Translations under genes and position numbers: made by a program
Notes under the pieces: generated by a model
Told to the model about the DNA's origin: nothing
The model's database searches: none
Seen by the model: the letters and a program-made list of their open reading frames with translations, nothing else
Assembly: GCF_022811645.1 (NCBI RefSeq)
Contig: NZ_CP094534.1
Coordinates: 4,774,001-4,838,000, forward strand
DNA length: 64,000 bases
DNA from: Hymenobacter monticola
GTDB taxonomy: Bacteria; Bacteroidota; Bacteroidia; Cytophagales; Hymenobacteraceae
Direction of reading: 5' to 3'
Part shown: positions 9,317 to 49,344 of the stretch, piece after piece
How positions within the stretch are numbered: the first letter of the stretch is position 1
Layout: every line of letters starts with the position of its first letter

Positions 9317-9376
9317 GTTACTGAATCACCTGCGTTTTCCCTGATACCACCCCGCTTTTCTCTCCTTTTTTCTGCA

Positions 9377-9415
9377 AAAAGCCCCGCCGTCGGTTCGCCC
9401 AGCGGCGGGGCTTTT
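9377..9415 (+). terminator. Terminator after the TonB-dependent receptor
   Basis: A 13-bp stem (9377-9389 with 9403-9415) with a T-rich end. The sequence closely resembles the terminator at 12332-12372. Confidence 0.88.
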
Positions 9416-9439
9416 AATTTTTCCCCATCCTTCCTGGCC

Positions 9440-10198
9440 ATGACCAAGTTTCTTTACCTGTTGCTCCCCGTCCTGCTGGCCGCCGGCCCTGCCACCGCCC
9501 AAACGGACCCACCGGCCACGGTCAACGTAGAAATTTCCATGCCCCGCGACAGCGCCCGCCAGTTTTTCGGCAGCTACCAGTTCGAGCCCAATTTCACGAT
9601 GCGCATTTTCAGCGAAAACGGGAAATATTATGGGCAACGCGTCGGCGACCCCGAGCGGTTTCAGCTTTTCGCTAAGCAGGCCAACCGTTTTTTCCTCAAG
9701 GCCATGCCGGCCGAGCTGGAATTTGTGCGCGACGCCCGCGGGCGCTACCAGACGCTGGTGCTGCACCAGGGCGGCCGCAACATGCGCGCCCAGCGCACCC
9801 AGGCCCAGCCGGTCGAGCTCTACGACACGGTGCTGCACCTCGACAGCCTCTTGTACGGCGCCTACAACCGCCGCAACCTGCCGGTGCTGCTGGGCTATTT
9901 CGCCCCCACCCTGGAATTTTATCACGACCAAACCGGCTTCACAACCTACGCGGAAAATGCCCGGCGCTTCAAGGAAAACTTTGCCAAGCCCACCGTGATG
10001 CGGCGCGAGCTGGCCCCGGGCAGCCTTGAAGTGTACCCCATTGCGGGCTTCGGCGCCATTGAAATCGGCACCCACCGCTTCTACCAAACCGACCCGGGCC
10101 AGCCGGAAAGGCTGGTAGCCGAGCCCCGCTTCCTGCACGTGTGGCAGAATACCCAAGGCCGCTGGCAAATTGTGCGCATTGTGAGCTACGACCATTGA
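9440..10198 (+). CDS. Secreted DUF3471-like plus NTF2/DUF4440-like protein
   Basis: A 252-residue protein with a signal peptide (about 1-20, ending ATAQ). Residues about 38-115 match the DUF3471 pattern (FFGSYQFEP, RFFLKAMPAELEFVRD, LVLHQGG), a module usually found at the C-terminus of serine beta-lactamase-like and peptidase proteins. Residues about 125-252 have the look of an NTF2/SnoaL fold of the DUF4440 type (an N-terminal helix followed by LGYFAPTLEFYHD and a final RWQIVRIVSYDH strand). No catalytic residues can be named. The neighbouring M28 peptidase also ends in a DUF3471-like module, but intergenic spacing and a possible promoter suggest separate transcripts. Confidence 0.65.
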   Translation: MTKFLYLLLPVLLAAGPATAQTDPPATVNVEISMPRDSARQFFGSYQFEPNFTMRIFSENGKYYGQRVGDPERFQLFAKQANRFFLKAMPAELEFVRDARGRYQTLVLHQGGRNMRAQRTQAQPVELYDTVLHLDSLLYGAYNRRNLPVLLGYFAPTLEFYHDQTGFTTYAENARRFKENFAKPTVMRRELAPGSLEVYPIAGFGAIEIGTHRFYQTDPGQPERLVAEPRFLHVWQNTQGRWQIVRIVSYDH

Positions 10199-10289
10199 GG
10201 CACGGCGAATAGCTCCGGCCCTGTAATGCCGGCGGCCCCGCTGCGATTTAGCTAGTAGCGAGGCTCATTCAGAAATGCTGCCGAAGCCG

Positions 10290-10297
10290 TAGTTTCG
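10290..10297 (+). promoter_or_regulatory. Possible -7 box TAGTTTCG upstream of the M28 peptidase
   Basis: It matches the TAnnTTCG variant also seen before the genes at 23317 and 32626, and lies 70 nt before the ATG at 10368. Confidence 0.35.
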
Positions 10298-10367
10298 CCG
10301 CCGAACCTGCAATTGCTTTATTCTTTCTGCTTTTTCTGCAACCCTCTTTCCTCACTATCTGACTTCT

Positions 10368-12308: not shown

Positions 12309-12331
12309 CCTTCCTCCTCTCTTTCTGCGGA

Positions 12332-12372
12332 AAAGGCCCCGTCGTCGGTTCATCCGGCGGCGGGGTTTTGCT
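12332..12372 (+). terminator. Terminator between the M28 gene and the convergent XRE gene
   Basis: An imperfect GC-rich stem (GGCCCCGTCGTCGG with CCGGCGGCGGGG) flanked by AAAA and TTTT, so it could work in both directions. It is a near-copy of the terminator at 9377-9415. Confidence 0.7.
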
Positions 12373-12379
12373 TTTAGGG

Positions 12380-12994
12380 CTATGCTGGTTTCGACGCGTT
12401 CAATGCCGCTTCCAAATGCGCAATTTCTGCCTGCAAGCCCGCCAAGCGGGCTTCGAGCAGTGCCCGCGTCTGCACACCGAATTTTGCCAAATCCGACGTA
12501 GCATCCTCGGCCATGCGGCCGGCCCAGGCCAGGTTGGGCATCGATGGCTCATCGGGCAGGCTGGGCAATGGAGCCCGTGGGGGCAGCACCGCCAGCCGCG
12601 CCGGCAGGGCCCGCCGGTGCCGAGCGGCCTGCAGCCGCGGCAGTTGCTGCGCCAAGGCAAGGGCAAGCTTTTGGGCCTCGGTGCGGCATACTTCCAAGCG
12701 GCTTTGCAGTCCATCAAGTGTTTTAGCCGTCGATTCTGCCGGGTCGGGCGGTAGGTCGGCGGGGGCGCTACCGTGCGGCGGGGGCATCAGGCTCAGCAAG
12801 GGCAGCATGCGCCAGGTAGCCACCATCGGCAACGGCCGGCGGTCCGCTTCAATATGCGTCAGCAGGCTACGGTCGATGCCAAGATACTGGGCCAAATCGG
12901 CTTGGCTGAGCCCAAAATGCGTGCGCATGGCCCGCAGGGTTGAATTACTATGATTCACGAAATCAGGTAAATAGTTAATCGAATCAATTGTCAC
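12380..12994 (-). CDS. XRE-family helix-turn-helix regulator
   Basis: A 204-residue protein. Residues about 19-52 form an XRE-type helix-turn-helix (MRTHFGLSQADLAQYLGIDRS, then LLTHIEADRR). The rest is a Pro-rich linker and a helical, coiled-coil-like C-terminus rich in Ala, Leu, Glu and Arg. The start is GTG at 12994, whose bases lie inside a TGTGACAATT half-site; an internal ATG near residue 23 would cut off the first helix context. It is divergent from hisS across a 184-nt region with four copies of the same half-site, which suggests autoregulation. The target genes beyond this are unknown. Confidence 0.72.
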   Translation of the reverse strand: MTIDSINYLPDFVNHSNSTLRAMRTHFGLSQADLAQYLGIDRSLLTHIEADRRPLPMVATWRMLPLLSLMPPPHGSAPADLPPDPAESTAKTLDGLQSRLEVCRTEAQKLALALAQQLPRLQAARHRRALPARLAVLPPRAPLPSLPDEPSMPNLAWAGRMAEDATSDLAKFGVQTRALLEARLAGLQAEIAHLEAALNASKPA

Positions 12995-13110
12995 ACTATT
13001 TACGCAGTTTTAGTATAAAGTGACAATTAATATCACATTTAATTTCAAAACTTATAAATTTGTGACAATAATTGTCACATCTCATTATGGTGTTTGCGTT
13101 TTTGTGACAA
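12987..13110. promoter_or_regulatory. Operator array with TGTGACAAT half-sites
   Basis: An AT-rich divergent region holding one perfect 19-bp palindrome TGTGACAATAATTGTCACA (13061-13079). Partial copies occur at 12987-12996 (over the XRE start codon), at 13020-13036 (GTGAC...ATCAC) and at 13103-13110 (TGTGACAA). The best-supported reading is a binding array for the adjacent XRE regulator. Confidence 0.65.
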
Positions 13111-13162
13111 CACAGTATTAACCGTGGGCAGGTAGTTTTCGCCACTGGCTCGCCTAGCCCGT

Positions 13163-13170
13163 TACCTTTG
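13163..13170 (+). promoter_or_regulatory. -7 box TACCTTTG directly upstream of hisS
   Basis: An exact TAnnTTTG match that ends 8 nt before the hisS ATG. The transcript would have almost no leader. Confidence 0.6.
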
Positions 13171-13178
13171 CCTGCGTT

Positions 13179-14612
13179 ATGCAAAAACCGAGTATTCCCA
13201 AGGGCACCCGCGACTTTGGCCCCGCGCAGGTGGCGCGCCGCCAGCACATTTTCAACGTCATCCGCCGCACGTTCGAGTCGTTTGGCTACGCGCCGCTCGA
13301 AACGCCGACGCTGGAGAACCTGTCGGTGCTCACCGGCAAGTACGGCGACGAGGGCGACCAGCTGCTGTTCAAAGTGCTGAACTCTGGCGATTTTGCCAAG
13401 GACGTGACGGCCGACGACCTGGCCACCGGCTCGAAAGCACTGCTGCCAAAAGTGGCCGAAAAAGGCCTGCGCTACGACCTCACCGTGCCCTTCGCCCGCT
13501 ACGTGGCCATGAACCGCGGCACGCTCACCTTCCCCTTCAAGCGCTACCAGATGCAGCCCGTGTGGCGCGCCGACCGCCCCCAGCGCGGCCGCTACCGCGA
13601 GTTTTACCAGTGCGACGCCGACGTGGTGGGCACCGACTCGCTGCTCTGCGAAGCGGAAATCGTGCTCATGATGGCCCAGGTGCTCGGCGGCCTCGGCCTG
13701 CACGACTTCACCATCAAAATCAACCACCGCGGGGTACTGCGCAACATCTACCAGGCGCTGGGCGGCGAGGGCCGCGAAACGGATTTGTTCGTGGCCATCG
13801 ACAAGCTCGATAAAATCGGGCGCGACGGCGTGAGCAAGGAGCTGCTGGAACGCGGCTTCTCGGCGCCGACTATCGACACCTTGTTTGAGTTGCTCACGGT
13901 GGAGGGCACCTACGAGGAGAAGCTGCAGCGCCTGCTGGCCGGCTTTGTGACGGCGGGCGTGGAGCCCGACGGCGTGCGCCCCACCACCGCCGACGTGGAG
14001 GCCGACTCGCCCGAGCCGCTGGCCAACTACCTCGGCCTTACCGAGCTGGCCGAGGTGCTGGACATCCTGCACGCCTCCGGCTTCCGGCAGTTCGACCGGC
14101 TGGAGTTTGACCCCACGCTGGCGCGGGGTCTCTCCTACTACACGGGCTGCATTTTCGAGGTTAAAATCAACAACGTGCAGATGGGCAGCGTGAGCGGCGG
14201 CGGGCGCTACGACAACCTCACGGGCTCGTTCGGATTGCCAGGCGTGTCGGGCGTGGGCTTCTCGTTCGGCGTCGACCGGCTGTATGACTGCCTGGAAGCG
14301 CTGGACCTGTTCACGGTGACGGGCGAAACGCCCACCCGCTGCCTCATCACCCACTTCGACGTGGCCAGTGGCCGGGCCGCCCTGCCCCTGCTGGCCGAGC
14401 TGCGCGCCGCCGGCATCCCCAGCGAGCTGTACCCCGACGCCAGCAAGCTGCAGAAGCAGTTCAAGTACGCCGATGCCAAGGGCATTCCGCTGGTCATCAT
14501 CATGGGCCCGGAGGAAGCGGCGGCCGGCGTGGTGAAAATCAAAATCATGCAAACCGGCGTGGAGCGCGTGCTGCCGCTGGGCGAAGTGGTGGCGGCCCTC
14601 ACGGCGGAGTAA
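13179..14612 (+). CDS. hisS: Histidyl-tRNA synthetase
   Basis: A 477-residue class II aminoacyl-tRNA synthetase charging tRNA-His in the cytoplasm. Motif 2 is seen in QPVWRADRPQRGRYREFYQCD, the histidine-binding loop in GLSYYTG with GGGRYDNL, and motif 3 in GFSFGVDRL. The C-terminal anticodon-binding domain covers about the last 95 residues. The length is slightly above the bacterial norm, as in other Bacteroidota. The start ATG 13179 gives the standard N-terminus with PSIPKGTRDFGP. The next gene starts within the stop codon (TAATG). Confidence 0.96.
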   Translation: MQKPSIPKGTRDFGPAQVARRQHIFNVIRRTFESFGYAPLETPTLENLSVLTGKYGDEGDQLLFKVLNSGDFAKDVTADDLATGSKALLPKVAEKGLRYDLTVPFARYVAMNRGTLTFPFKRYQMQPVWRADRPQRGRYREFYQCDADVVGTDSLLCEAEIVLMMAQVLGGLGLHDFTIKINHRGVLRNIYQALGGEGRETDLFVAIDKLDKIGRDGVSKELLERGFSAPTIDTLFELLTVEGTYEEKLQRLLAGFVTAGVEPDGVRPTTADVEADSPEPLANYLGLTELAEVLDILHASGFRQFDRLEFDPTLARGLSYYTGCIFEVKINNVQMGSVSGGGRYDNLTGSFGLPGVSGVGFSFGVDRLYDCLEALDLFTVTGETPTRCLITHFDVASGRAALPLLAELRAAGIPSELYPDASKLQKQFKYADAKGIPLVIIMGPEEAAAGVVKIKIMQTGVERVLPLGEVVAALTAE

Positions 14613-38253: not shown

Positions 38254-39273
38254 ATGGCTCTCGACCTCAACCACAAATCCATCCTCGTCACGGGCGGCAC
38301 CGGCTCGTTCGGCAAGCAATTCGTGCGCACCGTTTTCGAACAATTTCCGCAGGTGAAACGCCTCGTGGTGTTCTCGCGCGACGAGCTGAAGCAGTACGAA
38401 ATGAGCCAGGAATTTAGCCCGGCCAAGTACCCGGCCATCCGCTACTTCATCGGCGACGTGCGCGACCCGCAGCGCCTGCACCGCGCCTGCGAGGGCATCG
38501 ACATTGTGATTCACGCCGCCGCCCTCAAGCAGGTGCCCGCTGCCGAGTACAACCCGATGGAGTGCATCAAAACCAACATCTTCGGGGCCGAAAACGTCAT
38601 CAACGCCGCCCTCGATTGCGGCGTGAAGGACGTGGTGGCCCTGAGCACCGACAAGGCCGCCGCGCCCATCAACCTCTACGGCGCCACCAAGCTGTGCTCG
38701 GATAAGCTCTTCGTGGCGGCCAACAACATGAAGGGTGCCCGCGACCTGCGTTTCTCGGTGGTGCGCTACGGCAACGTCATTGGCTCGCGCGGCTCGGTGG
38801 TGCCGTTCTTCCTGCAGGAGCGCCACAAGGGCGTGCTGCCCATCACGCACCCCGATATGACGCGCTTCAACATCTCGCTCGAAGAAGGCGTGGACCTGGT
38901 GCTCTATGCGCTGGAGCACGCCTGGGGCGGCGAGATTTTCGTGCCGAAAATTCCCTCCTACAAAATCACGGAAGTAGCCCGCGCCATCGGCCCCGAGTGC
39001 GAGCAGCGCATCGTGGGCATCCGCCCCGGCGAGAAGCTGCACGAGGCCATGATAACCGAAACCGACGCCCTGAGCACTGTGGAGCTGGACCGCTACTACG
39101 TTATCCTGCCCGCGATGCCGACCTGGGATGTAGAAAAATTCATCAAGGAATTCAACGGGCAGCGCGTGCCGCTGGGCTTCTACTACGACTCGGCCAACAA
39201 CGAGGAATGGCTGGATGCGGAGCAGATTCGCGAGGAAATCCGCCTGCACGTGGACGCGGACTTTGCGGTGTAG
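38254..39273 (+). CDS. pseB: UDP-GlcNAc 4,6-dehydratase (inverting), PseB
   Basis: A 339-residue extended SDR. The NAD(P) motif is VTGGTGSFG (12-20). The catalytic residues are D133, K134 and Y142 in STDKAAAPINLYGATK, the arrangement of the inverting dehydratases of the PseB/FlaA1 group. It converts UDP-GlcNAc to UDP-4-keto-6-deoxy-L-AltNAc, the first step toward pseudaminic acid. The overall sequence (HAAALKQVPAAEYNPMECIKTN, VRYGNVIGSRGSVVPFFL) matches PseB closely. It is the first gene of a plus-strand operon to at least pseI. Confidence 0.93.
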   Translation: MALDLNHKSILVTGGTGSFGKQFVRTVFEQFPQVKRLVVFSRDELKQYEMSQEFSPAKYPAIRYFIGDVRDPQRLHRACEGIDIVIHAAALKQVPAAEYNPMECIKTNIFGAENVINAALDCGVKDVVALSTDKAAAPINLYGATKLCSDKLFVAANNMKGARDLRFSVVRYGNVIGSRGSVVPFFLQERHKGVLPITHPDMTRFNISLEEGVDLVLYALEHAWGGEIFVPKIPSYKITEVARAIGPECEQRIVGIRPGEKLHEAMITETDALSTVELDRYYVILPAMPTWDVEKFIKEFNGQRVPLGFYYDSANNEEWLDAEQIREEIRLHVDADFAV

Positions 39274-39343
39274 TTTTTAGGCTTCTGGCAGATAGCTACC
39301 AGCCAGAATTCGTTCTCTTTACCTGAACAACAGCTAGCAGTTA

Positions 39344-40537
39344 ATGGCCAACAGCTCAACAGTGCCTGACCGCCCCCTTCCCTACGGCCGCCAGCACATC
39401 ACCGACGCCGACGTGGCCGCTGTGACGGCCGCCCTGCACGCCGACTACCTCACCCAGGGCCCCACCGTGGCCGAGTTTGAGCGGCAGTTTGCCGAGTACG
39501 TTGGGGCCAGGTACGCCGTGGCCGTAAGCAACGGCACCGCTGCATTGCACCTCTGCGCCCTGGCCCTGAACGTGCAGCCCGGCCAGCGCATCATTACTAC
39601 GCCCCTCACCTTTTCGGCCTCGGCCAACTGCGTGCGCTACTGCGGCGGCGAGGTGCACTTTGCCGACATCGACCCACAAACCGGATTGGTGGATTTAGGA
39701 TTGGTGCGCCAGATGCTCGAAGCGCACCCAAAAGGCTATTTCACCGGCCTGATTCCGGTGGATTTTGCCGGACTGGCCGTAAACTTGGAAGAAGCCCGGA
39801 AGCTGGCCGACGAGTTCGGCCTCTGGATAATTGAGGACGCCTGCCACGCGCCCGGCGGCTTTTTCGTCGACTCGGCGGGCCGGGAGCAGCGCTGCGGCAA
39901 CGGCCACTTTGCCGACCTAGCCATCTTCAGCTTCCACCCCGTGAAGCACATTGCCACCGGCGAAGGCGGCATGATTACCACCAACTCGGAGGCGCTGTTT
40001 CACCACCTGCTGCGCCTGCGCACCCACGGCATTACCCGCGACCCGGCCGACCTCGTACGTGAGCCCGACGGCGGCTGGTACATGGAAATGCAGGAGCTGG
40101 GCTACAACTACCGCCTGCCCGATTTCAACTGCGCTCTGGGCCTGAGCCAGCTGGCCCGCGCCGACGAAGGCCTGGCCCGCCGCCGCCAGCTGGCCGCCCG
40201 CTACGATGCCGCCTTTGCCGCGTTGCCGGGTGTGACGGTGCTGGCCCCCGGCCGGCCCGGCCACGCCTACCACCTTTATGTCATTCAAGTAGCGCAGCGG
40301 CGGGAGCTGTATGACTTTTTAAAAACCAAGCAGATATTTGCGCAGGTGCATTACATCCCGGTGCACCGCATGCCGTACTACGAAGGCCTGGGCTGGCGCG
40401 CGGGCGACTTCCCGCTCGTGGAGAATTATTACGCGCACTGCCTAAGCATCCCCATGTTTCCGACGCTGACCGACGCGGAGCAAGACTACGTGGTGGCGTG
40501 CATTCGGGAGTTCGTCGAAGCACCCCATGCCCGCTGA
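39344..40537 (+). CDS. pseC: UDP-4-amino-4,6-dideoxy-AltNAc transaminase, PseC
   Basis: A 397-residue PLP-dependent aminotransferase of the DegT/DnrJ/EryC1 family. PLP would bind to K201 in FHPVKHIATGEGG. Other marks are YGRQHITDADVAAV, NGTAALHLCALAL and DACHAPGG. It adds an amino group at C4 of the PseB product. The final segment YIPVHRMPYYEGLGWRAGDFP is typical of PseC. It starts 70 nt after pseB and overlaps the next gene by 11 nt. Confidence 0.9.
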   Translation: MANSSTVPDRPLPYGRQHITDADVAAVTAALHADYLTQGPTVAEFERQFAEYVGARYAVAVSNGTAALHLCALALNVQPGQRIITTPLTFSASANCVRYCGGEVHFADIDPQTGLVDLGLVRQMLEAHPKGYFTGLIPVDFAGLAVNLEEARKLADEFGLWIIEDACHAPGGFFVDSAGREQRCGNGHFADLAIFSFHPVKHIATGEGGMITTNSEALFHHLLRLRTHGITRDPADLVREPDGGWYMEMQELGYNYRLPDFNCALGLSQLARADEGLARRRQLAARYDAAFAALPGVTVLAPGRPGHAYHLYVIQVAQRRELYDFLKTKQIFAQVHYIPVHRMPYYEGLGWRAGDFPLVENYYAHCLSIPMFPTLTDAEQDYVVACIREFVEAPHAR

Positions 40538-41444
40538 TATGGCCGCGGCTGACGCGCAGGACTTTACCGGCCGCTTGGCGCTGGGCACCGTGCAGTTTGG
40601 CCTTGATTACGGCATCAATAACACTGCTGGCCGCCCCGACGACGCCACGGTGGCCGAAATCCTGAGCATCGCCCAAGCCGCGGGCATTAACCTTTTGGAT
40701 ACGGCCGCCGCCTACGGCGACAGCGAAACCCGCCTGGGTGATTGGCTCGGTCAAGCCGGAGCCGAGCCCTATCCGTTTGCATTGGTGACCAAGCTGGCCG
40801 CGGGGCCAGCCGGGCACGTGTGGCATGCGTTTCAGAACTCGCTTAAACGCCTGCGGCTGACGTCGGTTTACGGGGTGCTGTTCCACCAGTTTGCTGGCTT
40901 TCGCGACAAGCCGGCGGCCTGGGAGGTATTGTGCGATGCGCAGGCGGCGGGCCTTGTGCAACGCATTGGCGTGTCGCTCTACCATCCCGAAGAAGCCGAG
41001 TGGCTGCTGGCCAACCCGCTGGGTGTAAGCTTGGTGCAGCTGCCCTTTAATGTGTTTGACCAGCGGTTTGGGCCTCTGTTGCCGGCCTTGCAGCGTGCCG
41101 GTATCGAGGTGCACGTGCGGTCGGCTTTTCTACAAGGACTGCTGCTGCGCGACCCGGCCACGCTGCCCGCTTTCTTTGCGCCGCTGGCGCCTAAACTCGT
41201 GCAGTTGCGGGCCTTAGCCCAGCGCGCGGGCATTCCGCTGGCTAGTTTGCTCCTGCTCTTTGCCGCTTACGCACCGGGCGTGGGCCGCGCGGTCATTGGC
41301 GTCGACACGGCGGCCAACCTGCGCGAAAACCTGGCCGCCGGCGCCTACCGGGTGCCGGCCGAGCTGCTGCGGGCTGAGCTGGAAACCCTGGCCGAAACAA
41401 CTACCGATTTTATTTTGCCCTATACATGGCCTCCTCGTCCTTAG
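40527..41444 (+). CDS. Aldo/keto reductase in the nonulosonate operon
   Basis: A 305-residue TIM-barrel aldo/keto reductase. The tetrad can be traced: Asp in NLLDTAAAYGDSE, Tyr in the same segment, Lys in LVTKLAAG and His in GVLFHQF. NADPH-binding residues would lie near AVIGVDTAANLRENL. It overlaps both pseC and the next gene, so it belongs to the operon. The known PseB-to-PseI route has no such step. It may reduce or epimerise a sugar intermediate, but the substrate cannot be read from the sequence. ATG 40539 is an alternative start. Confidence 0.82.
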   Translation: MPADMAAADAQDFTGRLALGTVQFGLDYGINNTAGRPDDATVAEILSIAQAAGINLLDTAAAYGDSETRLGDWLGQAGAEPYPFALVTKLAAGPAGHVWHAFQNSLKRLRLTSVYGVLFHQFAGFRDKPAAWEVLCDAQAAGLVQRIGVSLYHPEEAEWLLANPLGVSLVQLPFNVFDQRFGPLLPALQRAGIEVHVRSAFLQGLLLRDPATLPAFFAPLAPKLVQLRALAQRAGIPLASLLLLFAAYAPGVGRAVIGVDTAANLRENLAAGAYRVPAELLRAELETLAETTTDFILPYTWPPRP

Positions 41445-42232
41445 CCCCTTACGCCAACTTGTTCGACCTGACGGACCGGCTGATTCTCATCACAGGCGGC
41501 TACGGGCACCTGGGCCGCGGCATGGTGCGCGGCCTGCTGGCCCATGGCGCCACCGTGGTGGTGCTTGGGCGCGACGAAAACCAGTTCAAGGCCACCTTCG
41601 CGGAGGAAATCCCGGACGGAGCGCTGCATTTTGTGAGCTGCGACATTGCCACCACGCCTTCGGTGCAGGCGGCGCTGGCGGCCTGCCGGGAACGGCACGG
41701 CCTGCCCCACGTCCTCATCAACAACGCCGTGTACAGCGCCGGCCAGCAGCCCGATGCCCTGACCGACGAGCAATTTGCCCGCGGCCTCGACGGCTCGGCG
41801 GGCAGCGCCTACCGCTGCCTGCGCGAAGTGCTGCCCTACCTGCGCGAAAACGGCGGCGGCAAAATCATCAACGTAGCTTCGATGTACGGCCTCGTCGCCC
41901 CCGACTTCGCGGCCTACGACGAGTACCCGCAGTTTCTGAACCCGCCGCACTACGGCGCGGCCAAAGCCGCTGTAATTCAGCTCACCAAGTACTTTGCTTC
42001 TTACCTTGGCGCCGAAAACATTCAGGTAAACTGCGTGTCGCCGGGCCCTTTTCCCAGCGAAAGCGTGCAGGCAGAAAGTGGTTTTGTGGCGGAGCTGCAA
42101 AAGCGCAACCCCTTGGGGCGCATTGGCCGGCCTGATGACCTGGCCGGGGCTTTTGTGTACCTCTGCGCGGCGGCTTCTGACTTTGTTACCGGCCACAACC
42201 TCGTGGTGGACGGCGGCTGGACCATTCGCTAA
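41426..42232 (+). CDS. PtmA-like short-chain dehydrogenase/reductase
   Basis: A 268-residue SDR. The cofactor motif is TGGYGHLG (about 23-30) and the catalytic pair is Y-x-x-x-K in PPHYGAAKAAV. The rest fits PtmA-type enzymes of flagellin glycosylation: LTKYFASYLGAENIQVNCVSPG, NPLGRIGRPDDLAGAFVYL and the end VTGHNLVVDGGWTIR. It overlaps the aldo/keto reductase gene by 19 nt and precedes the cytidylyltransferase by 8 nt. Such genes sit in Campylobacter and other nonulosonate clusters. The exact reaction is not established. Confidence 0.82.
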   Translation: MASSSLAPYANLFDLTDRLILITGGYGHLGRGMVRGLLAHGATVVVLGRDENQFKATFAEEIPDGALHFVSCDIATTPSVQAALAACRERHGLPHVLINNAVYSAGQQPDALTDEQFARGLDGSAGSAYRCLREVLPYLRENGGGKIINVASMYGLVAPDFAAYDEYPQFLNPPHYGAAKAAVIQLTKYFASYLGAENIQVNCVSPGPFPSESVQAESGFVAELQKRNPLGRIGRPDDLAGAFVYLCAAASDFVTGHNLVVDGGWTIR

Positions 42233-42240
42233 TACCCCGC

Positions 42241-42993
42241 ATGATGCTCCCCTCCTGGCCCGTTCGCGTTGTCGTCATCATTCAGGCGCGCATGAACTCT
42301 TCCCGCCTGCCGGGCAAGGTACTGCTGCCCCTGCCTTTATCGGCCGAAACCAGCATTCTGGGCCATGTAGTGGCGCGCGCCGCGCTGGTGGTGCCGGGCC
42401 CGCAGGTGGTGGTGGCCACCTCCACCCAAGCGGCCGATGATGCCGTAGTCGCTGCCGCGCAGGCCCTGCAGGTGCCGGTATTTAGGGGCGACGAGCAGGA
42501 CGTGCTGGGCCGCTTCGTGGGGGCCGCAGCGGCCCATCAAGCCGAGGCAGTGGTTCGCCTCACAGCCGACAACCCGGCCGTAGACCCTGCTTTTGTGCGG
42601 GCCTGCGTGGCCCATCACCAGGCCACGCAGGCCGATTATACCCTGACCACGGGCCTGCCGCTGGGCACCAATGTAGAGGTCATCGCGGCAGCAGCCCTGC
42701 GCCGAGCTGCCGACGCCGCCACGCGCCCTGAGGAGCGCGAGCACGTGACGCCCTACCTGCGCCGCCACCCCAACCTTTTCCGGCTTGAAGAGTTGCCTTG
42801 CGCCGTGCCGGCTGCCGTGGCCGGGCTGCGCCTGACGGTGGATTACCCAAGCGACTACGCACTACTGCAGCTGCTGTATTCAGAGTTGCCTGCCGGTTTT
42901 TCGCTCACCGACCCGGCCGGGCTGCCCGCTTTGCTGGCAAAGCACCCCTGGCTGGCGCAGATTAACAGCCAAAACAGCCAGGTTCAACCCTAA
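42241..42993 (+). CDS. SpsF-like cytidylyltransferase
   Basis: A 250-residue protein of the MobA-like nucleotidyltransferase fold. The N-terminal signature VVIIQARMNSSRLPGKVLL is that of SpsF from the Bacillus spore-coat polysaccharide operon. Other parts are VFRGDEQDVLGRFV and VRLTADNPAVDPAFV. It would activate the nonulosonate as a CMP-sugar. It replaces the classical PseF/NeuA-type CMP-sugar synthetase, which is not present in the window. The coupled order with the SDR and acyltransferases supports this role. Confidence 0.8.
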   Translation: MMLPSWPVRVVVIIQARMNSSRLPGKVLLPLPLSAETSILGHVVARAALVVPGPQVVVATSTQAADDAVVAAAQALQVPVFRGDEQDVLGRFVGAAAAHQAEAVVRLTADNPAVDPAFVRACVAHHQATQADYTLTTGLPLGTNVEVIAAAALRRAADAATRPEEREHVTPYLRRHPNLFRLEELPCAVPAAVAGLRLTVDYPSDYALLQLLYSELPAGFSLTDPAGLPALLAKHPWLAQINSQNSQVQP

Positions 42994-43036
42994 AGCGCCG
43001 GTTTTTCTATCAACTTTCCATTCCTGCCCGTTTTCC

Positions 43037-43627
43037 ATGCCCGAGCTCTCCTACCTGGCCTTGCGCTCCAACCCGTACGAGCACGACGGCTACTGCCTGC
43101 GGCCCATCCGTTACGAAGACCGGGAGCCCATCCGGCAGTGGCGCAACGCCCAGCTGCAGGTGCTGCGTCAGGCCGTGCCGCTCACTGTCGAGCAGCAGGA
43201 CGCGTATTTCCAGCGCGTGGTGCTGCCGCTATTCGAGCAGGAACGGCCTGGCCAGCTACTATTTTCGTTGCTGCATCACAATGAGTTGGTGGCCTACGGC
43301 GGCCTGGTGCATATTTCCTGGCCCGACGAGCGGGCTGAGATTTCCTTTCTGGCCGCCCCGGCGCGCGTGAGAAACCCGGCCACCTACCGGCAGGACTTTC
43401 TCACGTTCCTGCAATTGCTCTACCGGGTGGCTTTCGAAGACCTGCGCCTGAACCGGCTGGTGACCGAAACCTACGACCTGCGGCCGGCGCACGTCGCCAT
43501 CATGGAAGAAAGCGGCTTGAAGCCCGAGGGCCGGCTGCGCCAGCACGTGCAGTTGGCACCCGGTACCTTTGCCGACTCGCTCATGCACGGGCTGCTGGCC
43601 GCGGACTACGCAGCCACCGCGCCCTGA
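43037..43627 (+). CDS. GNAT-family N-acyltransferase 1
   Basis: A 196-residue GNAT protein. The N-terminal LRPIRYEDREPIRQWRN is the usual beta-alpha start of the family. The core has YGGLVHISWPDERAEISFLAAP and LRLNRLVTETYDLRPAHVAIMEESGL, with the end HVQLAPGTFADSLMHGLL. It does not look like the PseH of the next gene and may acylate a different position. The acyl donor would be acetyl-CoA or another acyl-CoA. It starts 43 nt after the cytidylyltransferase. Confidence 0.75.
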   Translation: MPELSYLALRSNPYEHDGYCLRPIRYEDREPIRQWRNAQLQVLRQAVPLTVEQQDAYFQRVVLPLFEQERPGQLLFSLLHHNELVAYGGLVHISWPDERAEISFLAAPARVRNPATYRQDFLTFLQLLYRVAFEDLRLNRLVTETYDLRPAHVAIMEESGLKPEGRLRQHVQLAPGTFADSLMHGLLAADYAATAP

Positions 43628-43689
43628 AGTGGTGCCGGCGCTGCGGCCCGCTGCTTTTCCCGTGTAAATCTGTTCTTGTTTTATTGCCC

Positions 43690-44235
43690 ATGAATAACGA
43701 CATCCTGCGCCCCCTCACCGCCGACGACCTGGAAATGGTGCGCGCCTGGCGCAATTCCGACGCTGTGGCTCAGTACATGTACACCGCCACGCCCGTTTCG
43801 GCCGAGCAGCAGCAGGCGTGGTTTGCCCGCATCAGCGCCGACGCCAGCAAGGAGTACTGGATTATTCAGAACCAGGGCCGGGCCGTGGGCGTGGCCAACC
43901 TCTACGACATCAACCCCGCGTTTAAATCCTGCTACTGGGCCTTTTACCTGGGCGAAACCGACCTGCGCGGCAGCGGCCTGGGCGCTAAAGTAGAAATGGC
44001 CGTGCTCGATTACGTGTTTGAGGAGCGCAAGCTGAACAAGCTGCTTTGTGAGGTATTTGTGAGCAACGACAAGGTGATTGCCATGCACGAGAAGTTTGGC
44101 TTTCGGCGCGAGTCGTATTTTCGCCAGCACATCTACAAAGACGGCGCCTTTCACGATGTAGTAGGCCTGGCCATGCTGCAGCGCGAGTGGCAGCAGTTGC
44201 GCGAGGGCCTCAGGGCCCGGTTTTTGCGGGCCTGA
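43690..44235 (+). CDS. pseH: PseH-like N-acetyltransferase (GNAT 2)
   Basis: A 181-residue GNAT protein. LRPLTADDLEMVRAWRNSD at the start, WFARISADASKEYWIIQNQGRAVGVANLYDIN and GSGLGAKVEMAVLDYVF match PseH, which acetylates the 4-amino group of UDP-4-amino-4,6-dideoxy-AltNAc. FEERKLNKLLCEVFVSN and HEKFGFRRE are also family-like. ATG 43690 was chosen over TTG 43684. With another GNAT just before it, the operon can probably place two different N-acyl groups. Confidence 0.8.
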   Translation: MNNDILRPLTADDLEMVRAWRNSDAVAQYMYTATPVSAEQQQAWFARISADASKEYWIIQNQGRAVGVANLYDINPAFKSCYWAFYLGETDLRGSGLGAKVEMAVLDYVFEERKLNKLLCEVFVSNDKVIAMHEKFGFRRESYFRQHIYKDGAFHDVVGLAMLQREWQQLREGLRARFLRA

Positions 44236-44277
44236 GCGCGGTCCCGGCCCGCTTCCGTTTCTCCCCAACCTCGCGCC

Positions 44278-44688
44278 ATGCCCCTGGCTCCCGGCGATAC
44301 CGCCTCCCTCAGCAAAACCATCACCGAAGCCGACGTGCAGCAGTTCGCCGCGCTCTCGCTCGACACTAACCCGCTGCACCTCGACGAGGAGTACGCCCGG
44401 GAAGCACGGTTTGGGCGGCGCATCAGCCACGGCATGCTCTACGGGGCGCTGGTGAGCGCCGTGATTGGCACGCAGCTGCCCGGGCCGGGCACCATTTACA
44501 TCAGCCAAAGCTTCACCTTCCTGAAGCCGGTGTTTCGCGAAGACGTCATCACGGCCACCGTGACCGTGACGGCAGTGGAAGCCGCCCGCCGGCAAGCCGT
44601 GCTGCGCACCGACTGCCACAACCAGCACGGCACCCTGGTGCTCACCGGCGAAGCCCGCGTGCTGCTGCCCCCTGCCGCAGGCCAGTAA
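44278..44688 (+). CDS. MaoC-like (R)-enoyl-CoA hydratase
   Basis: A 136-residue hot-dog protein of the MaoC/PhaJ group. The hydratase motif is complete: D29 and H34 in DTNPLHLDEEYA, and RISHGML (about 48-54). PhaJ-type enzymes turn crotonyl-CoA and related enoyl-CoAs into (R)-3-hydroxyacyl-CoA. No fatty-acid or PHA genes surround it; it lies between pseH and pseI in a sugar operon. It could supply a 3-hydroxyacyl group for N-acylation of the nonulosonate. A different use, such as sugar dehydration, is not excluded. Confidence 0.8.
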   Translation: MPLAPGDTASLSKTITEADVQQFAALSLDTNPLHLDEEYAREARFGRRISHGMLYGALVSAVIGTQLPGPGTIYISQSFTFLKPVFREDVITATVTVTAVEAARRQAVLRTDCHNQHGTLVLTGEARVLLPPAAGQ

Positions 44689-44715
44689 GCGCCGAATGGG
44701 CGGCGCGGCGCCCGT

Positions 44716-44723
44716 TACCTTTG
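44716..44723 (+). promoter_or_regulatory. -7 box TACCTTTG upstream of pseI
   Basis: An exact TAnnTTTG match, 19 nt before the pseI ATG. pseI may be transcribed separately as well as from the upstream operon. Confidence 0.55.
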
Positions 44724-44742
44724 CGTTCTTGCTTTTTTGCTC

Positions 44743-45786
44743 ATGACTGAGATTACCATTGGCGGCCGCTTGGTCGGCCCGGCCCACAAGCCGTTCATCA
44801 TCGCCGAAATGTCGGGCAACCACAACCAGAGCCTCGAGCGGGCCCTGGCTTTGGTCGATGCCGCCGCCGCGGCCGGCGTCGATGCCCTCAAGCTGCAGAC
44901 TTACACGGCCGACACCATTTCGATGGACACCGGCTTTGCCATTGCCGAGCAGGGCCAGTCGCTGTGGGAGGGCCAGAACCTCTACAAGCTCTACCAGGAG
45001 GCGCACACGCCCTGGGAATGGCACGCCGAACTGTTTGCCCGCGCCCGGCAGCACGGCCTGCTAGCCTTCAGCTCGCCGTTCGACGAGACGGCGGTGGACT
45101 TTCTGGAGACGCTCGACGTGCCGGCCTACAAAATTGCCTCTTTCGAAAACGCCCACTGGCCGCTGCTGCGCAAAGTAGCCGCTACCGGCAAGCCCGTGAT
45201 AGTGAGCACCGGCGCCGCCACCCTGGCCGAGATTGACGACGCCGTGCGGGTGCTGCGCGGAGCCGGCTGCCGCGAACTGGTGCTGCTCAAGTGTACCAGC
45301 ACCTACCCCGCCTCGCCCGCCAACACCAACCTGCGCACCATCCCGGTGCTGGCCGAAACCTTCGGCTGCCCCATCGGCCTGAGCGACCACACCATGGGCG
45401 TGGGCGCGAGCGTGGCGGCCGTGGCCCTGGGCGCCTGCGTCATTGAGAAGCACTTCACCACCAGCCGTGCCGAGGGCGGCGTCGATTCCGCCTTCTCGCT
45501 GGAGCCGCACGAGCTGAAGCTGCTGGTGGAAGAAACCGAGCGCGCCCACCAGGCGCTGGGCGGCGTGCAGCTCTGCGTTCAGCCCAACGAGGAGAAAAGC
45601 CGCCTCTACAAGCGCAGCATCTACGTGTCGAAGCCCATTGCGGCCGGCGAAGAATTCACCACCGATAACCTGAAAATCATTCGCCCCGGCGACGGCCTCT
45701 GGCCCCGGCACTGGGACACCGTGCTGGGCCGCCGGGCGGTGAAGGACCTCAAACCCGGCACGCCGCTTACGTGGGAAGCCATTTAG
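44743..45786 (+). CDS. pseI: Pseudaminic acid synthase, PseI
   Basis: A 347-residue NeuB-family enzyme that condenses a 2,4-diamino hexose with phosphoenolpyruvate. The TIM-barrel part has FIIAEMSGNHNQSLERAL, ALKLQTYTADTISM, HTPWEWHAELF, LLAFSSPFDETAVDFLE and LLKCTSTYPAS, all close to PseI of Campylobacter rather than NeuB. The C-terminal SAF domain (about 285-347) has RSIYVSKPIAAGEEFT. ATG 44743 was chosen over a TTG two codons earlier. The stop codon TAG is the first part of the octamer array that follows. Confidence 0.93.
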   Translation: MTEITIGGRLVGPAHKPFIIAEMSGNHNQSLERALALVDAAAAAGVDALKLQTYTADTISMDTGFAIAEQGQSLWEGQNLYKLYQEAHTPWEWHAELFARARQHGLLAFSSPFDETAVDFLETLDVPAYKIASFENAHWPLLRKVAATGKPVIVSTGAATLAEIDDAVRVLRGAGCRELVLLKCTSTYPASPANTNLRTIPVLAETFGCPIGLSDHTMGVGASVAAVALGACVIEKHFTTSRAEGGVDSAFSLEPHELKLLVEETERAHQALGGVQLCVQPNEEKSRLYKRSIYVSKPIAAGEEFTTDNLKIIRPGDGLWPRHWDTVLGRRAVKDLKPGTPLTWEAI

Positions 45787-45876
45787 GGTAAGAGGGTATG
45801 AGGGTATGAGGGTAAGAGGGTAAGAGGGTAAGAGGGTAAGAGGGTAAGAGGGTAAGAGGGTAAGAGGGTAAGAGGG
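45784..45876 (+). repeat. Array of eleven 8-nt repeats, GGGTAAGA
   Basis: Eleven consecutive 8-nt units from 45786 to 45873 plus GGG; units 2 and 3 read GGGTATGA, the others GGGTAAGA. The array starts in the pseI stop codon. A reverse-oriented stretch of similar words (GGGTAGGA, GGGTGGGC, GGGTATGG on the minus strand) lies at 45935-45969, so the region looks like a family C palindrome in which the left arm expanded. Confidence 0.95.
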
Positions 45877-45909: not shown

Positions 45910-47235
45910 ATGTCGACTACGCCAACAGAAACAACTCCTACCCCCATACCCGCCCACCCTCCTACCCTAGTCAAGCGCCTGCGCGACATCCTGCAGCTGC
46001 GCTTCTCCGACGTGTATGCCGACCTGCCCGCGGCGGCCATGGCCAGCATTTCGCCCGCCAACCCACTGAAACGGCTGGCGCGAGTGCTGGCCTACGCGAG
46101 CTTGCGGCTGGTGGGCAACGTGTTTCGGCCCATCCGCAACCCCGACAACCTGCACGGCCAGGTGTGGCTCTACGTGGTGAGCGCCAACAACTATGATGCG
46201 CTTTCTTTCATTAAAGCCGCGCGGACCGATGCTGTGCTGCTAGCCGGGCAAGCCAAAAACATTGGGCGCTACAACGGGGCCGTAAACCGGCTATCGCTGC
46301 GCCGCAAGCTGCTGTACTACTGGCAGTTTCCCTGGGCTTTCATCGGGCTGCTGCGTTCGGAAGGACGGCGGGCGTGGCGGTACTTCGATTTTATTTTCTA
46401 CGCCATTGGCTATTACGAGGTGTACCGGCGGGCTTTGCGCCATTACCGCCCGCGCGCCGTGGTGTTTTCCAACGACCACAACGACGACTCCCGCTCGCTG
46501 CTGCTGGCCTGCCAGGCCGAGGGCGTGCCCACGGCCTACATTCAGCACGCCAGCGTGAGCACGAGCTTCCCGCCCCTGGGCTTCGACCTCAGCCTGCTCG
46601 AAGGCCAGGACGCCCTGGACAAGTACCGCCAGTGCGGCCCGGTGCGCGGCCGGGTGGAGCTGGTGGGCATGCCCAAGGCGGACGCTTTTTTGGGCCAGAA
46701 AAACACGCAACCGGCCGTGAAGCGGGTAGGCTTGGCCTGCAACGTGCACGACCCCGTATCGGCTCTCACCGAAACCCTCTCCTACCTGATGGCGGAGCTG
46801 CCGGGCCTGACCTTCACCCTGCGCCCGCACCCCAGCGACCCGCGCGATTTTCAGCCGCTGCGGCGGGCGCTGCCCCTGCTGCAATGGTCTGACTCCAAGC
46901 AGGAAAACGTGTTTGCTTTCCTGCAAAAACACGACGCGCTGATTGCCGCCGATACCTCAACCCACCTGGAAGCCATCCTGCTGAATCTGGCCAGTATCTA
47001 CTTCCAGTTTAGCGGTAATGCTGCCATCAACGATTACTACGGCTATGTGGCCCACGGCCTGATTGACGCGGCGCAGGACCTGCCCGCGTTGAAAGCCCTA
47101 TTGCTTCAATACCAGGCAAGGAAGCCGACCGACCTGTTCCGGCGCGCTTCCTATTACAACGCCACGGTAGGAACGGAGCACGAAGACCGCAGTCAGGAAC
47201 TAGCGGCCGATATTATTACGAAATGGATGCGGTAG
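45910..47235 (+). CDS. Capsule-type glycosyltransferase, candidate nonulosonate transferase
   Basis: A 441-residue protein that looks like a GT-B transferase of the capsular polysaccharide/PseD-like kind. The N-terminal 35 residues are Pro/Thr-rich and partly encoded by the right arm of a repeat. The core has YYEVYRRALRHYRPRAVVFSNDHND, TAYIQHASVSTSFPPLGFDLSLLEG and a C-terminal LRPHPSDPRDF with DALIAADTSTHLEAILLNLASIYF, which resembles the donor-site region of KpsC/KpsS- and sialyltransferase-like enzymes. It directly follows pseI, so transfer of the CMP-activated nonulosonate is a likely role. The true start may be downstream, for example the Met near residue 44. Confidence 0.65.
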   Translation: MSTTPTETTPTPIPAHPPTLVKRLRDILQLRFSDVYADLPAAAMASISPANPLKRLARVLAYASLRLVGNVFRPIRNPDNLHGQVWLYVVSANNYDALSFIKAARTDAVLLAGQAKNIGRYNGAVNRLSLRRKLLYYWQFPWAFIGLLRSEGRRAWRYFDFIFYAIGYYEVYRRALRHYRPRAVVFSNDHNDDSRSLLLACQAEGVPTAYIQHASVSTSFPPLGFDLSLLEGQDALDKYRQCGPVRGRVELVGMPKADAFLGQKNTQPAVKRVGLACNVHDPVSALTETLSYLMAELPGLTFTLRPHPSDPRDFQPLRRALPLLQWSDSKQENVFAFLQKHDALIAADTSTHLEAILLNLASIYFQFSGNAAINDYYGYVAHGLIDAAQDLPALKALLLQYQARKPTDLFRRASYYNATVGTEHEDRSQELAADIITKWMR

Positions 47236-47265: not shown

Positions 47266-49344
47266 GTGCTTCTACCATTCTTCTACATATCGGCCACCGG
47301 TTGGGTCCGAGGGCTGTGCGCCATTGCACTGCTATTGCTTTGTGTGCTGCGCTTTGGCTGCCCGCAGGCGTGGGCTCAGGCACGGTCGTTGCCAGGCTCC
47401 GGCAACTCGCTGTTTTTTAACGGCATCGACAGCTACGTGGATTGCGGCCCCACCAATCGGGCAATTCGGGACCAACTGGTCCTCACCGTCTGGGTAAAGA
47501 CTCAGAATTCAGGTTATCAATGCGTGGTCAGTAAGTTTTCGGACGGCCCGGCCGAGGACAAAGGGTTTTTCCTGTACACCTCGGGCGGCAAAGCGGGCTT
47601 TAGCGGCCGCAACGGCTCGGGACGGCTCATGAGTTCGGGCCTGTCCACCTCGCGCATCGACGACGGACGCTGGCACCACTTGGCGGGCATTTGCAGCGGC
47701 AACCCTTGGCGGTGGCAAATTGTGGTCGATGGCATTCTGGAAAACACGGGCAACTACTCGAACGCGGGCACGTTGGAGTTAGCGAGCACCGCGCCGCTGC
47801 TCATCGGGTGTGACTACGTAGCAAATGGACACTATTTCGAGGGAGAGATTGATGAACTAAAAATTGCTTCGGCTCCATCTAACGATTACAGTATACGCCT
47901 GTCCATGTGTTCCAAGTACACCACGGCACCGCAGACTATGTGGTTCAACTACCGCTTTGACATGAGCGCCGGCACCACCCTGGTCGACAACGGGTCGAGA
48001 CCGGCCGATGGCACCCTCCACAACTTTGGCAATAACCCGTGGCGCACCTCGGGCGCCCCGATTGGGGACCGGACGCTGGCGGTGTATGGAGACTTATTAG
48101 CACCGCTTCCGCTTAACCAGCCCTGGCGCATGGAAACAGCGGAGGGCGACAGCATCATTATTGATAACATTTCACCTTCCACCCGAGGAATCCATATCTA
48201 CCTGGTCGACGAGCCGCCTTCCATCCTGCCTTCGGGCCCCTCGGGCGGAGCTTATTTCGGCGTTTTCACGGTTGGAGACCCAAGCGCCAATAGCTACACC
48301 CTCAGCATCAGGCCTGCCGGCGGGGCGGGCTGCCGCAATGCTTACACCCGGCTGAGCAACGACAGGCAGTGGTCCTTGCCTGCCCAGCTGCCCTCCAGCC
48401 GCGACCGGCTGCTGATACCCACCACGGTCTACCGCAGCGAGCATATTCTGACGCGTGGGCCTGAAACCCTGGCAACCATCAGCGGTGATTCCGTGGCCTG
48501 CGCGGGCGGCCGCGCAACGCTGGCCGTAGCGGGCGCAGGCATCACGGGCATTCGGTGGAACACCGGCGCAACCACTCCTACCCTCAGCGCGGGGCCCGGC
48601 GCCTACACGGCCGTTGTCACTTTTGCCTCGGGCTGCTCGCGGGTGTTGCAGCACATCGTGCGGAGCATCACCCCGGGCTTAATCATCACCGGAGATTCCA
48701 CCCTCTGTCCGGGCCGGGCTACCTCCTTAACGGCGCTAGCCGCCCGCGCCACTTCCTACCGCTGGAGCACCGGGGCCACCACGGCCACGGTGCAATTAAC
48801 CCAGTCCGGCACTTACACGGTGACGGCAACCTACCCTGGGGGCTGCACAGTATCGGCCCGACGCACCGTGCGCCTGAATACAGAACTGGTTCCAACATTC
48901 ACCCTCGGCGTCGATACGACCCTGTGCGAGGGCGAACAAGTGCTGTTGCAGGGGCCGGCCGGTGCTTCCTACCGCTACCAGTGGTCGGACGGCTCGACCA
49001 ACCGGCAACTGCTGGCGCAGGCAGCCGGGCGCTACACCTTGCGGGTGAGCACGGCCTGCGGCGAACAAAGCGCCAGCCGCACCGTGGCTGTGGCCTCCTG
49101 CCTGAAAGTGCCCAACATTATAACCGCCAATGGCGATAAGCACAACGACCGGTTCACGGTGCAGGGCCTGAAGGGCGAGGGCTGGGTGCTGGACGTATAC
49201 AACCGTTGGGGCCGGGCCGTGTTCCAGACGGCCAACTACCACAACGAGTGGGGCGCCGACGCCGCGCCCGGCGTGTACTATGTGCTGCTGCGTCGGCCCG
49301 CCACGGGCTTCGTGTACAAGGGCTGGCTGGAAGTAGTCCGCTAG
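47266..49344 (+). CDS. LamG-domain T9SS type B sorted protein
   Basis: A 692-residue secreted protein. The signal peptide is long (about 1-38, ending AWAQ). Residues about 45-205 form a LamG/concanavalin-like domain (NSLFFNGIDSYVDCG, DDGRWHHLAGICSG, FEGEIDELKIA). Ig/PKD-like repeats follow (GDSVACAGGRATLAVAG, GDSTLCPGRATSLTALA, DTTLCEGEQVLLQG). The last 75 residues are the type B sorting domain: KVPNIITANGDKHNDRFTV, LDVYNRWGRAVFQ and the final YKGWLEVVR. The start is GTG 47266. It is embedded in the glycan locus, which is unusual for a cargo gene. Confidence 0.85.
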   Translation: MLLPFFYISATGWVRGLCAIALLLLCVLRFGCPQAWAQARSLPGSGNSLFFNGIDSYVDCGPTNRAIRDQLVLTVWVKTQNSGYQCVVSKFSDGPAEDKGFFLYTSGGKAGFSGRNGSGRLMSSGLSTSRIDDGRWHHLAGICSGNPWRWQIVVDGILENTGNYSNAGTLELASTAPLLIGCDYVANGHYFEGEIDELKIASAPSNDYSIRLSMCSKYTTAPQTMWFNYRFDMSAGTTLVDNGSRPADGTLHNFGNNPWRTSGAPIGDRTLAVYGDLLAPLPLNQPWRMETAEGDSIIIDNISPSTRGIHIYLVDEPPSILPSGPSGGAYFGVFTVGDPSANSYTLSIRPAGGAGCRNAYTRLSNDRQWSLPAQLPSSRDRLLIPTTVYRSEHILTRGPETLATISGDSVACAGGRATLAVAGAGITGIRWNTGATTPTLSAGPGAYTAVVTFASGCSRVLQHIVRSITPGLIITGDSTLCPGRATSLTALAARATSYRWSTGATTATVQLTQSGTYTVTATYPGGCTVSARRTVRLNTELVPTFTLGVDTTLCEGEQVLLQGPAGASYRYQWSDGSTNRQLLAQAAGRYTLRVSTACGEQSASRTVAVASCLKVPNIITANGDKHNDRFTVQGLKGEGWVLDVYNRWGRAVFQTANYHNEWGADAAPGVYYVLLRRPATGFVYKGWLEVVR

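Follow-up and report, generated by a model that had tools for sequence, protein, structure and literature searches.

Gene content of the operon

A stretch of 64,000 nucleotides from Hymenobacter monticola (contig NZ_CP094534.1, positions 4,774,001 to 4,838,000; hereafter the window) carries an operon for the biosynthesis of a nonulosonic acid at window positions 38254–45786. The operon codes for PseB, PseC, PseH and PseI together with an aldo/keto reductase (AKR), a short-chain dehydrogenase/reductase (SDR), an SpsF-like cytidylyltransferase, a MaoC-like protein and a second GNAT-fold protein of 196 residues, which we refer to as GNAT1 (Table 1). The roles initially assigned to PseB, PseC, PseH and PseI are borne out, as all four score above the curated NCBIfam cut-offs, and the domain search confirmed the presence in the operon of AKR, SDR, CTP_transf_3, a second GNAT and MaoC. 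The description of the genes as an overlapping row applies to the PseC/AKR and AKR/SDR boundaries, while the remaining genes are 8 to 70 bases apart. For PseH and PseI, the ATG codons at 43690 and 44743 are the more likely starts.

The pseudaminic acid pathway as found in textbooks always includes PseG, a UDP-sugar hydrolase (UDP, uridine diphosphate). A profile search of the whole H. monticola genome (6.12 Mb in 7 contigs, completeness 100%) returned no PseG match at E ≤ 0.001. There are three PF02348 proteins genome-wide, namely KdsB, one protein in a second NeuB locus and the one in the operon, and none is near the TIGR03584 cut-off of 206 bits for PseF (KdsB 35 bits, the NeuB-locus protein 24 bits, the operon protein no match). 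The lack of both PseG and classical PseF noticed in the operon thus holds genome-wide by profile search; the possibility that pseG and pseF reside elsewhere in the genome had been raised, and the search found neither. Within the operon, the SpsF-like enzyme is the sole candidate for the synthetase that joins the nonulosonate to cytidine monophosphate (CMP).

The second locus (L067, C1:3545000-3564000, positions 7755–13782) is ulosonic-acid-like and encodes a NeuB-like synthase, an SDR, a class-III (glutamate-semialdehyde type) aminotransferase and a cytidylyltransferase. It was considered as a source of the missing activities and set aside, since neither PseG nor NeuC was recognised there. Of the 17 other genomes compared, 14 also have a second match to the PseI model, at about 200 bits and below the cut-off.

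The operon looks maintained by selection despite having no PseG, because the ratio of nonsynonymous to synonymous substitution rates (dN/dS) is 0.06–0.21 across ten genes, from PseB through the gene after PseI, in comparison with Hymenobacter ruricola. Among named loci with the same gene set, that of H. ruricola has the GNAT1 most similar to the one in the window (88%). Deletion of flmD in Caulobacter supports the need for a PseG-type step in other pathways (PMC7591256). Considering the comparisons presented in the following sections, GNAT1 is probably a non-orthologous replacement of PseG and a predicted GNAT-fold UDP-sugar hydrolase.

Table 1. Features of the H. monticola operon and its downstream region (window coordinates).
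Feature	Position	Strand	Evidence
PseB, UDP-N-acetylglucosamine (UDP-GlcNAc) 4,6-dehydratase (inverting)	38254..39273	+	TIGR03589 520 bits, cut-off 408 (NCBIfam)
PseC, UDP-4-amino-4,6-dideoxy-L-AltNAc transaminase	39344..40537	+	TIGR03588 457 bits, cut-off 424
AKR, putative counterpart of the AKR half of EpaA (C8 epimerisation)	40527..41444	+	PF00248 102 bits
SDR oxidoreductase, putative EpaB counterpart	41426..42232	+	PF13561 157 bits
SpsF-like cytidylyltransferase	42241..42993	+	PF02348 98 bits; no TIGR03584 match
GNAT1, GNAT-fold protein, proposed PseG replacement	43037..43627	+	PF13420 42 bits; complementarity, fusions
PseH, N-acetyltransferase	43690..44235	+	TIGR03585 151 bits, cut-off 93; RxxGxG motif is RGSGLG
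MaoC/(R)-hydratase-like protein	44278..44688	+	PF01575 80 bits; D-x-N-P-x-H motif present; NF006045 144 bits, below cut-off 282; 95% identity to H. ruricola counterpart
PseI, pseudaminic acid synthase	44743..45786	+	TIGR03586 479 bits, cut-off 340
Tandem array, 11.5 copies of AGGGTAAG	45785-45876		Between PseI and the following gene
PostGT, conserved protein after PseI, candidate nonulosonic acid transferase	45910..47235	+	NF046086 glycosyltransferase match, weak, E 6e-4; no Pfam match
LamG-like gene	47266-49344		Follows the pse cluster

Complementary distribution of GNAT1 and PseG

We compared the occurrence of the two proteins in a sample of 150 genomes of the family, counting PseI over its cut-off and PseG at E < 1e-40. 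PseI was found in 134 genomes, 115 of them with PseG and 19 with GNAT1, none with both and none with neither, so that GNAT1 and PseG are complementary in 134 of 134 PseI-positive genomes. The remaining 16 genomes, without PseI over the cut-off, have neither protein. In three borderline cases, G112 (a weak PseG match of 20 bits) was scored as lacking PseG, G100 (PseG 151.8 bits, cut-off 153.55) as having it and G111 (290 bits for the PseI model, below the cut-off) as PseI-negative. The Fisher value of 2e-23 for this sample is no true probability, because the GNAT1 genomes are related (they represent three genera).

In the class sample (395 genomes, searched for GNAT1 and PseG), GNAT1 occurs in 23 genomes and PseG, counted at E ≤ 1e-15, in 68, of which 38 are over the cut-off. 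No genome has both, whereas 4.0 would be expected (P 0.011). A scan of species genomes with the GNAT1 alignment yielded 36 loci, with named records in Bacteroidota, Bacillota, Nitrospirota and Actinomycetota. The retrieved stretch includes PseI in 34 of these loci and a PseG segment in none. Among 27 genomes behind GNAT1 loci, representing at least four phyla, none has PseG over the cut-off and seven have weak matches (≤ 34 bits). PseI is present in all 23 class and family GNAT1 loci (L154–L176). Searching plasmids with GNAT1 yielded two weak matches.

The picture is the same at the level of gene clusters. The best GNAT1 score within 23 PseG loci is 36 bits, and there are no PseG-domain matches in 60 GNAT1 loci. 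Since these 83 clusters were retrieved via AKR, GNAT1, PseG or PseI matches, only the lack of any cluster with both proteins is informative. Two of them, L074 and L075, were labeled as GNAT1 by hand, their cluster cores being L049 and L051. Some genomes and loci belong to more than one set, such as H. ruricola, which is represented as G102, L050 and L088.

Exchange of GNAT1 and PseG within operons

Domain fusions place GNAT1 and PseG next to the same partner. At eight loci, GNAT1 constitutes the N-terminal half of a longer protein; the C-terminal half is the acetyltransferase domain for which PseG serves as fusion partner in 15 other frames. Pairs of related operons point in the same direction. 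The cleanest sister pair, L158 and L181, has in common PseB (92% identity), a cytidylyltransferase gene (65%), PseI (93%) and the acetyltransferase domain (66%). Between PseB and PseI, L158 has GNAT1 and L181 has PseG and a methyltransferase; the outer genes differ in part. A second pair (L172 and L182) has PseC at 97% and PseI at 92%. A looser case is the PseG-bearing G138 (L055), in which PseH and PseI are 76% and 84% identical to those of the window. A further candidate pair, L171 and L180, was set aside as the two operons differ widely.

The PseI tree of the 83 clusters requires 12 changes between the GNAT1 and PseG states, at least seven of which are forced by strongly supported branches (the tree was built by a quick method without bootstrap). 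That PseI hardly changes when its partner is exchanged suggests that the free sugar is of the same kind whether it is supplied by the GNAT1 or by the PseG route.

The AKR, SDR and SpsF-like genes

According to the initial annotation, the inserted genes might provide an alternative hydrolysis step or lead to a modified end product. The first suggestion is supported in that the complementarity with PseG maps such a step to the second GNAT, but it does not extend to AKR, SDR and SpsF. These were considered as a PseG substitute and ruled out because the same genes co-occur with PseG: in the family sample, AKR orthologs (E ≤ 1e-60) are present in 42 of 150 genomes, 36 of which also have PseG, and on a Priestia plasmid pseG, pseH and pseI lie next to genes for an AKR, an SDR and an SpsF-like protein ('spore coat'). 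The usual order in 19 family loci (L048–L066) is PseB, PseC, AKR, SDR, cytidylyltransferase, either PseG or GNAT1, PseI and a downstream gene; the SpsF-like gene occupies an equivalent position in clusters both with and without PseG.

The domain content of this row resembles a published enzyme pair. EpaA (CTP_transf_3 and Aldo_ket_red domains) and EpaB (SDR) convert pseudaminic acid into 8-epipseudaminic acid, as established by nuclear magnetic resonance in 2025 (PMC12053666). As in these proteins of Acinetobacter prophages, CTP_transf_3, Aldo_ket_red and SDR (adh_short_C2) domains are encoded in one row, here together with the Pse pathway. In contrast to EpaA, the AKR and the cytidylyltransferase are unfused and reside in a pse operon instead of a prophage, and we liken the two systems by domain content and context. 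The fused arrangement can be seen on a Marinovum plasmid, which encodes a CTP_transf-AKR protein and an adjoining SDR; the opposite strand carries a gene for pseudaminic acid synthase close by. The window proteins are 39% (AKR), 37% (cytidylyltransferase) and 38% (SDR) identical to their Marinovum counterparts, and the SDR is 40% identical to that of the Priestia locus. AKR residues D58, Y63, K89 and H120, which we take to be the catalytic tetrad, do not vary among 11 aligned sequences. Homologs of EpaA/EpaB were not identified in phage and viral collections: the AKR retrieved five phage records, each with less than 80% coverage of the query, the SDR retrieved 114 (22 from Acinetobacter, matching at about 31%), with identity not exceeding 32% among the matches listed, and in viral contigs the AKR found two loci at 23–25%.

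Bacillus subtilis SpsF and Caulobacter FlmC are likewise proposed activating cytidylyltransferases other than classical PseF (PMC7439481, PMC7591256), and for SpsF this role has genetic support (PMC7439481). Unlike these two, the H. monticola protein is encoded next to AKR and SDR genes; the B. subtilis pathway uses SpsG, and that of Caulobacter FlmD, a UDP-sugar hydrolase. A similar composition is seen in the nab cluster of Vibrio B9-25K2, with PseB, PseC, SpsF-like and AKR domains, a dehydrogenase and a PseH domain (PMC7371886). In contrast to the window operon, the nab cluster has PseG, and its AKR and SpsF-like domains are fused (PMC7371886).

Overall, the AKR, SDR and SpsF-like row is probably the counterpart of the 8-epipseudaminic acid pair. 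The idea of a modified end product is thus retained, with the difference that the product is probably of a known kind. It might be argued that AKR and SDR have a function different from C8 epimerisation, yielding, for example, a different stereoisomer or an acyl donor. In the vicinity of a PseG-type Pse cluster, one frame of 399 residues has both MaoC and SDR matches (L183:1835-3034); this might point to hydroxyacyl donors in the pathway, and an SDR could serve acyl metabolism. However, AKR, SDR and cytidylyltransferase occur together without a MaoC match in most AKR-bearing family loci, and the Marinovum fusion next to an SDR has the EpaA/EpaB layout. We therefore regard such another role as doubtful, though deserving of consideration.

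GNAT1 and acylation

By profile, GNAT1 has the GNAT fold and, like PseH and other GNAT acetyltransferases, a WRN motif. Its nearest solved sequence is H. pylori PseH (4ri1, E 0.003), and comparison with the GNATs of PseH and PseG-partner type gives an hhalign probability of 97.8% at 11% identity. The similarity does not extend to the motif region, which is replaced. The RxxGxG/A motif binds acetyl-CoA (CoA, coenzyme A). Its general form, [RQ]xxGx[GA], is present in 24 of 27 PseG-partner domains and in 5 of 5 PseH proteins, whereas nine of 60 distinct GNAT1 sequences match the pattern, in each case at offset 78 or 121 and outside the aligned place of the motif. In close relatives of GNAT1, the next motif region reads TYD[IL]RPxH, unlike in PseH. 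GNAT1 has no NCBIfam match at E ≤ 0.001, so that the score of the TIGR03585 PseH equivalog is not reached. Near-invariant residues in 61 sequences include R36, N37, L43, R44, Q45, Q54, Y87, G88, G89, W95, E101, T143, D147, R149, E164, H170, D180 and H184. L122 was excluded from alignment A3 owing to in-frame stop codons. Related database proteins number 2133 at E ≤ 1e-10 and are named acetyltransferase or hypothetical protein among the 120 matches listed.

The genes encoded next to GNAT1 are informative as to its role. The pathway offers one free amine for acylation, and in the window PseH accompanies GNAT1, which sits in the place of PseG. Of 60 GNAT1 clusters, 39 have an ATP-grasp protein without a match to PseH-type models (one of these, L116, also carries a PseH-like GNAT), 12 have a PseH or PseG-type acetyltransferase, one has both and eight have neither according to the models. 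The last eight comprise L074 and L075, outer parts of clusters with ATP-grasp in the core, L164 and L171, which have another GNAT, and L165, L166, L169 and L170, which have a formyltransferase. Among the 23 PseG clusters, 20 have an acetyltransferase, L184 has ATP-grasp and two have neither by the models; of these two, L183 has another GNAT and L185, among the genes tested, only a PIG-L deacetylase. Because other acylation genes (acetyl-, formyl- or ATP-grasp) stand beside GNAT1, gene content argues against N-acylation as the role of GNAT1: clusters differ in their N-acylating gene but retain either GNAT1 or PseG.

Nevertheless, GNAT1 could be an ordinary or divergent N- or O-acyltransferase, with UDP removed by some unlinked accompanying enzyme. 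The fold, the database names and H. pylori PseH as the nearest solved sequence fit an acyltransferase, and at least 15 of 60 GNAT1 clusters (L164 and L171 included) have a canonical acetyltransferase adjoining, so a second acylation is conceivable. On the other hand, an acyltransferase predicts neither the one-for-one replacement of PseG nor fusion to the partner domain of PseG, it leaves the pairing with formyltransferase and ATP-grasp genes unpredicted, and none of the 60 GNAT1 sequences has the CoA motif at its usual position. We consider this explanation unlikely.

ATP-grasp, epimerase and HAD proteins

A different enzyme set accompanies many GNAT1 proteins, and it is conceivable that UDP is removed by an ATP-grasp/epimerase/HAD module in two steps (pyrophosphate cleavage and dephosphorylation), with GNAT1 only traveling along. 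The block of GNAT1, epimerase/ATP-grasp, HAD and PseI is indeed conserved across phyla, and L116 has a metallophosphoesterase (L116:11292-11993) at the HAD position of related clusters. However, no ATP-grasp match is present in 17 of 21 class-sample GNAT1 loci (L158–L173 and L176; L154–L157 have one), in L184 an ATP-grasp protein accompanies an intact PseG, and a search for the module in the H. monticola and H. ruricola genomes gave nothing beyond weak HAD matches, yet their operon appears to be under selection. On this search result, the module was rejected as the substitute in the present operon; the two species keep GNAT1, PseH and MaoC. As a general explanation, we find the module very improbable. 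Still less credible is that the operon is decaying after the loss of PseG and no pseudaminic acid is made: the genome has no PseG, but the ten reading frames are conserved in two species at the low dN/dS given above, and PseG-less clusters with GNAT1 are widespread.

The clusters with this module show two further features. In several phyla, GNAT1 adjoins a fused epimerase/ATP-grasp protein (L049:2447-4399 and relatives), in the SDR half of which Thr replaces the Tyr of YxxxK (TGMAK and TGSAK in two sequences read by eye). In the L116 cluster, a cytidylyltransferase and a class-III aminotransferase share a single frame.

Neighboring genes

In 17 of 19 family loci, PostGT is encoded downstream of PseI, either immediately or after a few intervening genes. 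The stretches L049 and L051 stop before PseI, and their continuations L074 and L075 carry PostGT. At varying points inside or beside family pse clusters, the opposite strand encodes PKD-like proteins that have a CHU_C-type end and are presumably cargo-like with respect to the type IX secretion system (L048, L049, L050, L052, L053, L064, L065, L078, L079 and L081). The LamG-like gene downstream of the H. monticola cluster (47266-49344) is one of this kind.

Proposed pathway

Putting these data together, we think it fairly likely that the operon makes CMP-activated pseudaminic acid, probably the 8-epimer, with GNAT1 in place of PseG. PseB and PseC would convert UDP-GlcNAc into UDP-4-amino-4,6-dideoxy-L-AltNAc, and PseH would acylate the amine to give a UDP-diacylamino sugar. 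GNAT1, instead of PseG, would then release the sugar from UDP, and PseI would condense the freed sugar with phosphoenolpyruvate to form pseudaminic acid. The SDR and the AKR may jointly invert C8 and the SpsF-like enzyme would add CMP, the order of these last steps being tentative. The start and the condensation step are the same as in the canonical Campylobacter/Helicobacter pathway (PseB, C, H, G, I, F). The differences are GNAT1 at the place of PseG, the SpsF-like enzyme at that of PseF and the addition of AKR, SDR and MaoC. As to the latter, a stand-alone MaoC gene was found only in H. monticola and H. ruricola among the loci examined. Our guess, by analogy, is that MaoC might supply (R)-3-hydroxyacyl-CoA to PseH; for Acinetobacter psaG/psaH, 7-N-3-hydroxybutanoyl pseudaminic acid has been predicted (PMC6586298).

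As for its origin, GNAT1 looks distantly related to PseH-type GNATs; it may have retained the binding of this UDP-sugar while losing the acetyl-CoA motif and taking on the role of PseG. We lean slightly towards the broader scenario, in which a PseH-like enzyme turned into the nucleotide-sugar hydrolase of the next step and then repeatedly displaced PseG across several phyla.

Several observations weigh against these interpretations. When only the 38 class-sample genomes with PseG over the cut-off are considered, 2.2 co-occurrences are expected and P rises to 0.09. Moreover, p-values that ignore phylogeny overstate the case, as the GNAT1 genomes are related. Neither stretch of the cleanest sister pair (L158/L181) has PseC, and in the second pair (L172/L182) other genes differ too. 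An ATP-grasp protein, a possible substitute, occurs in 40 of 60 GNAT1 clusters (37 of these 40 with the epimerase domain and 38 with a HAD hydrolase). The assignment of AKR and SDR to the Epa pair draws on domain content and context. Finally, we found no report of a GNAT-fold nucleotide-sugar hydrolase in the open PMC literature, which sets the prior against such an enzyme; a report of a PseG-less Pse pathway was not found there either.

If GNAT1 does replace PseG, the consequences would reach beyond Hymenobacter. A genome without PseG would be judged incapable of making pseudaminic acid, and this judgement would be wrong for many bacteria. Many of the proteins related to GNAT1, mostly named acetyltransferase among the matches listed, may carry the wrong function. 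Nucleotide-sugar hydrolysis would join the chemistry known for the GNAT fold, and GNAT1 would represent a case of one pathway enzyme evolving into the next.

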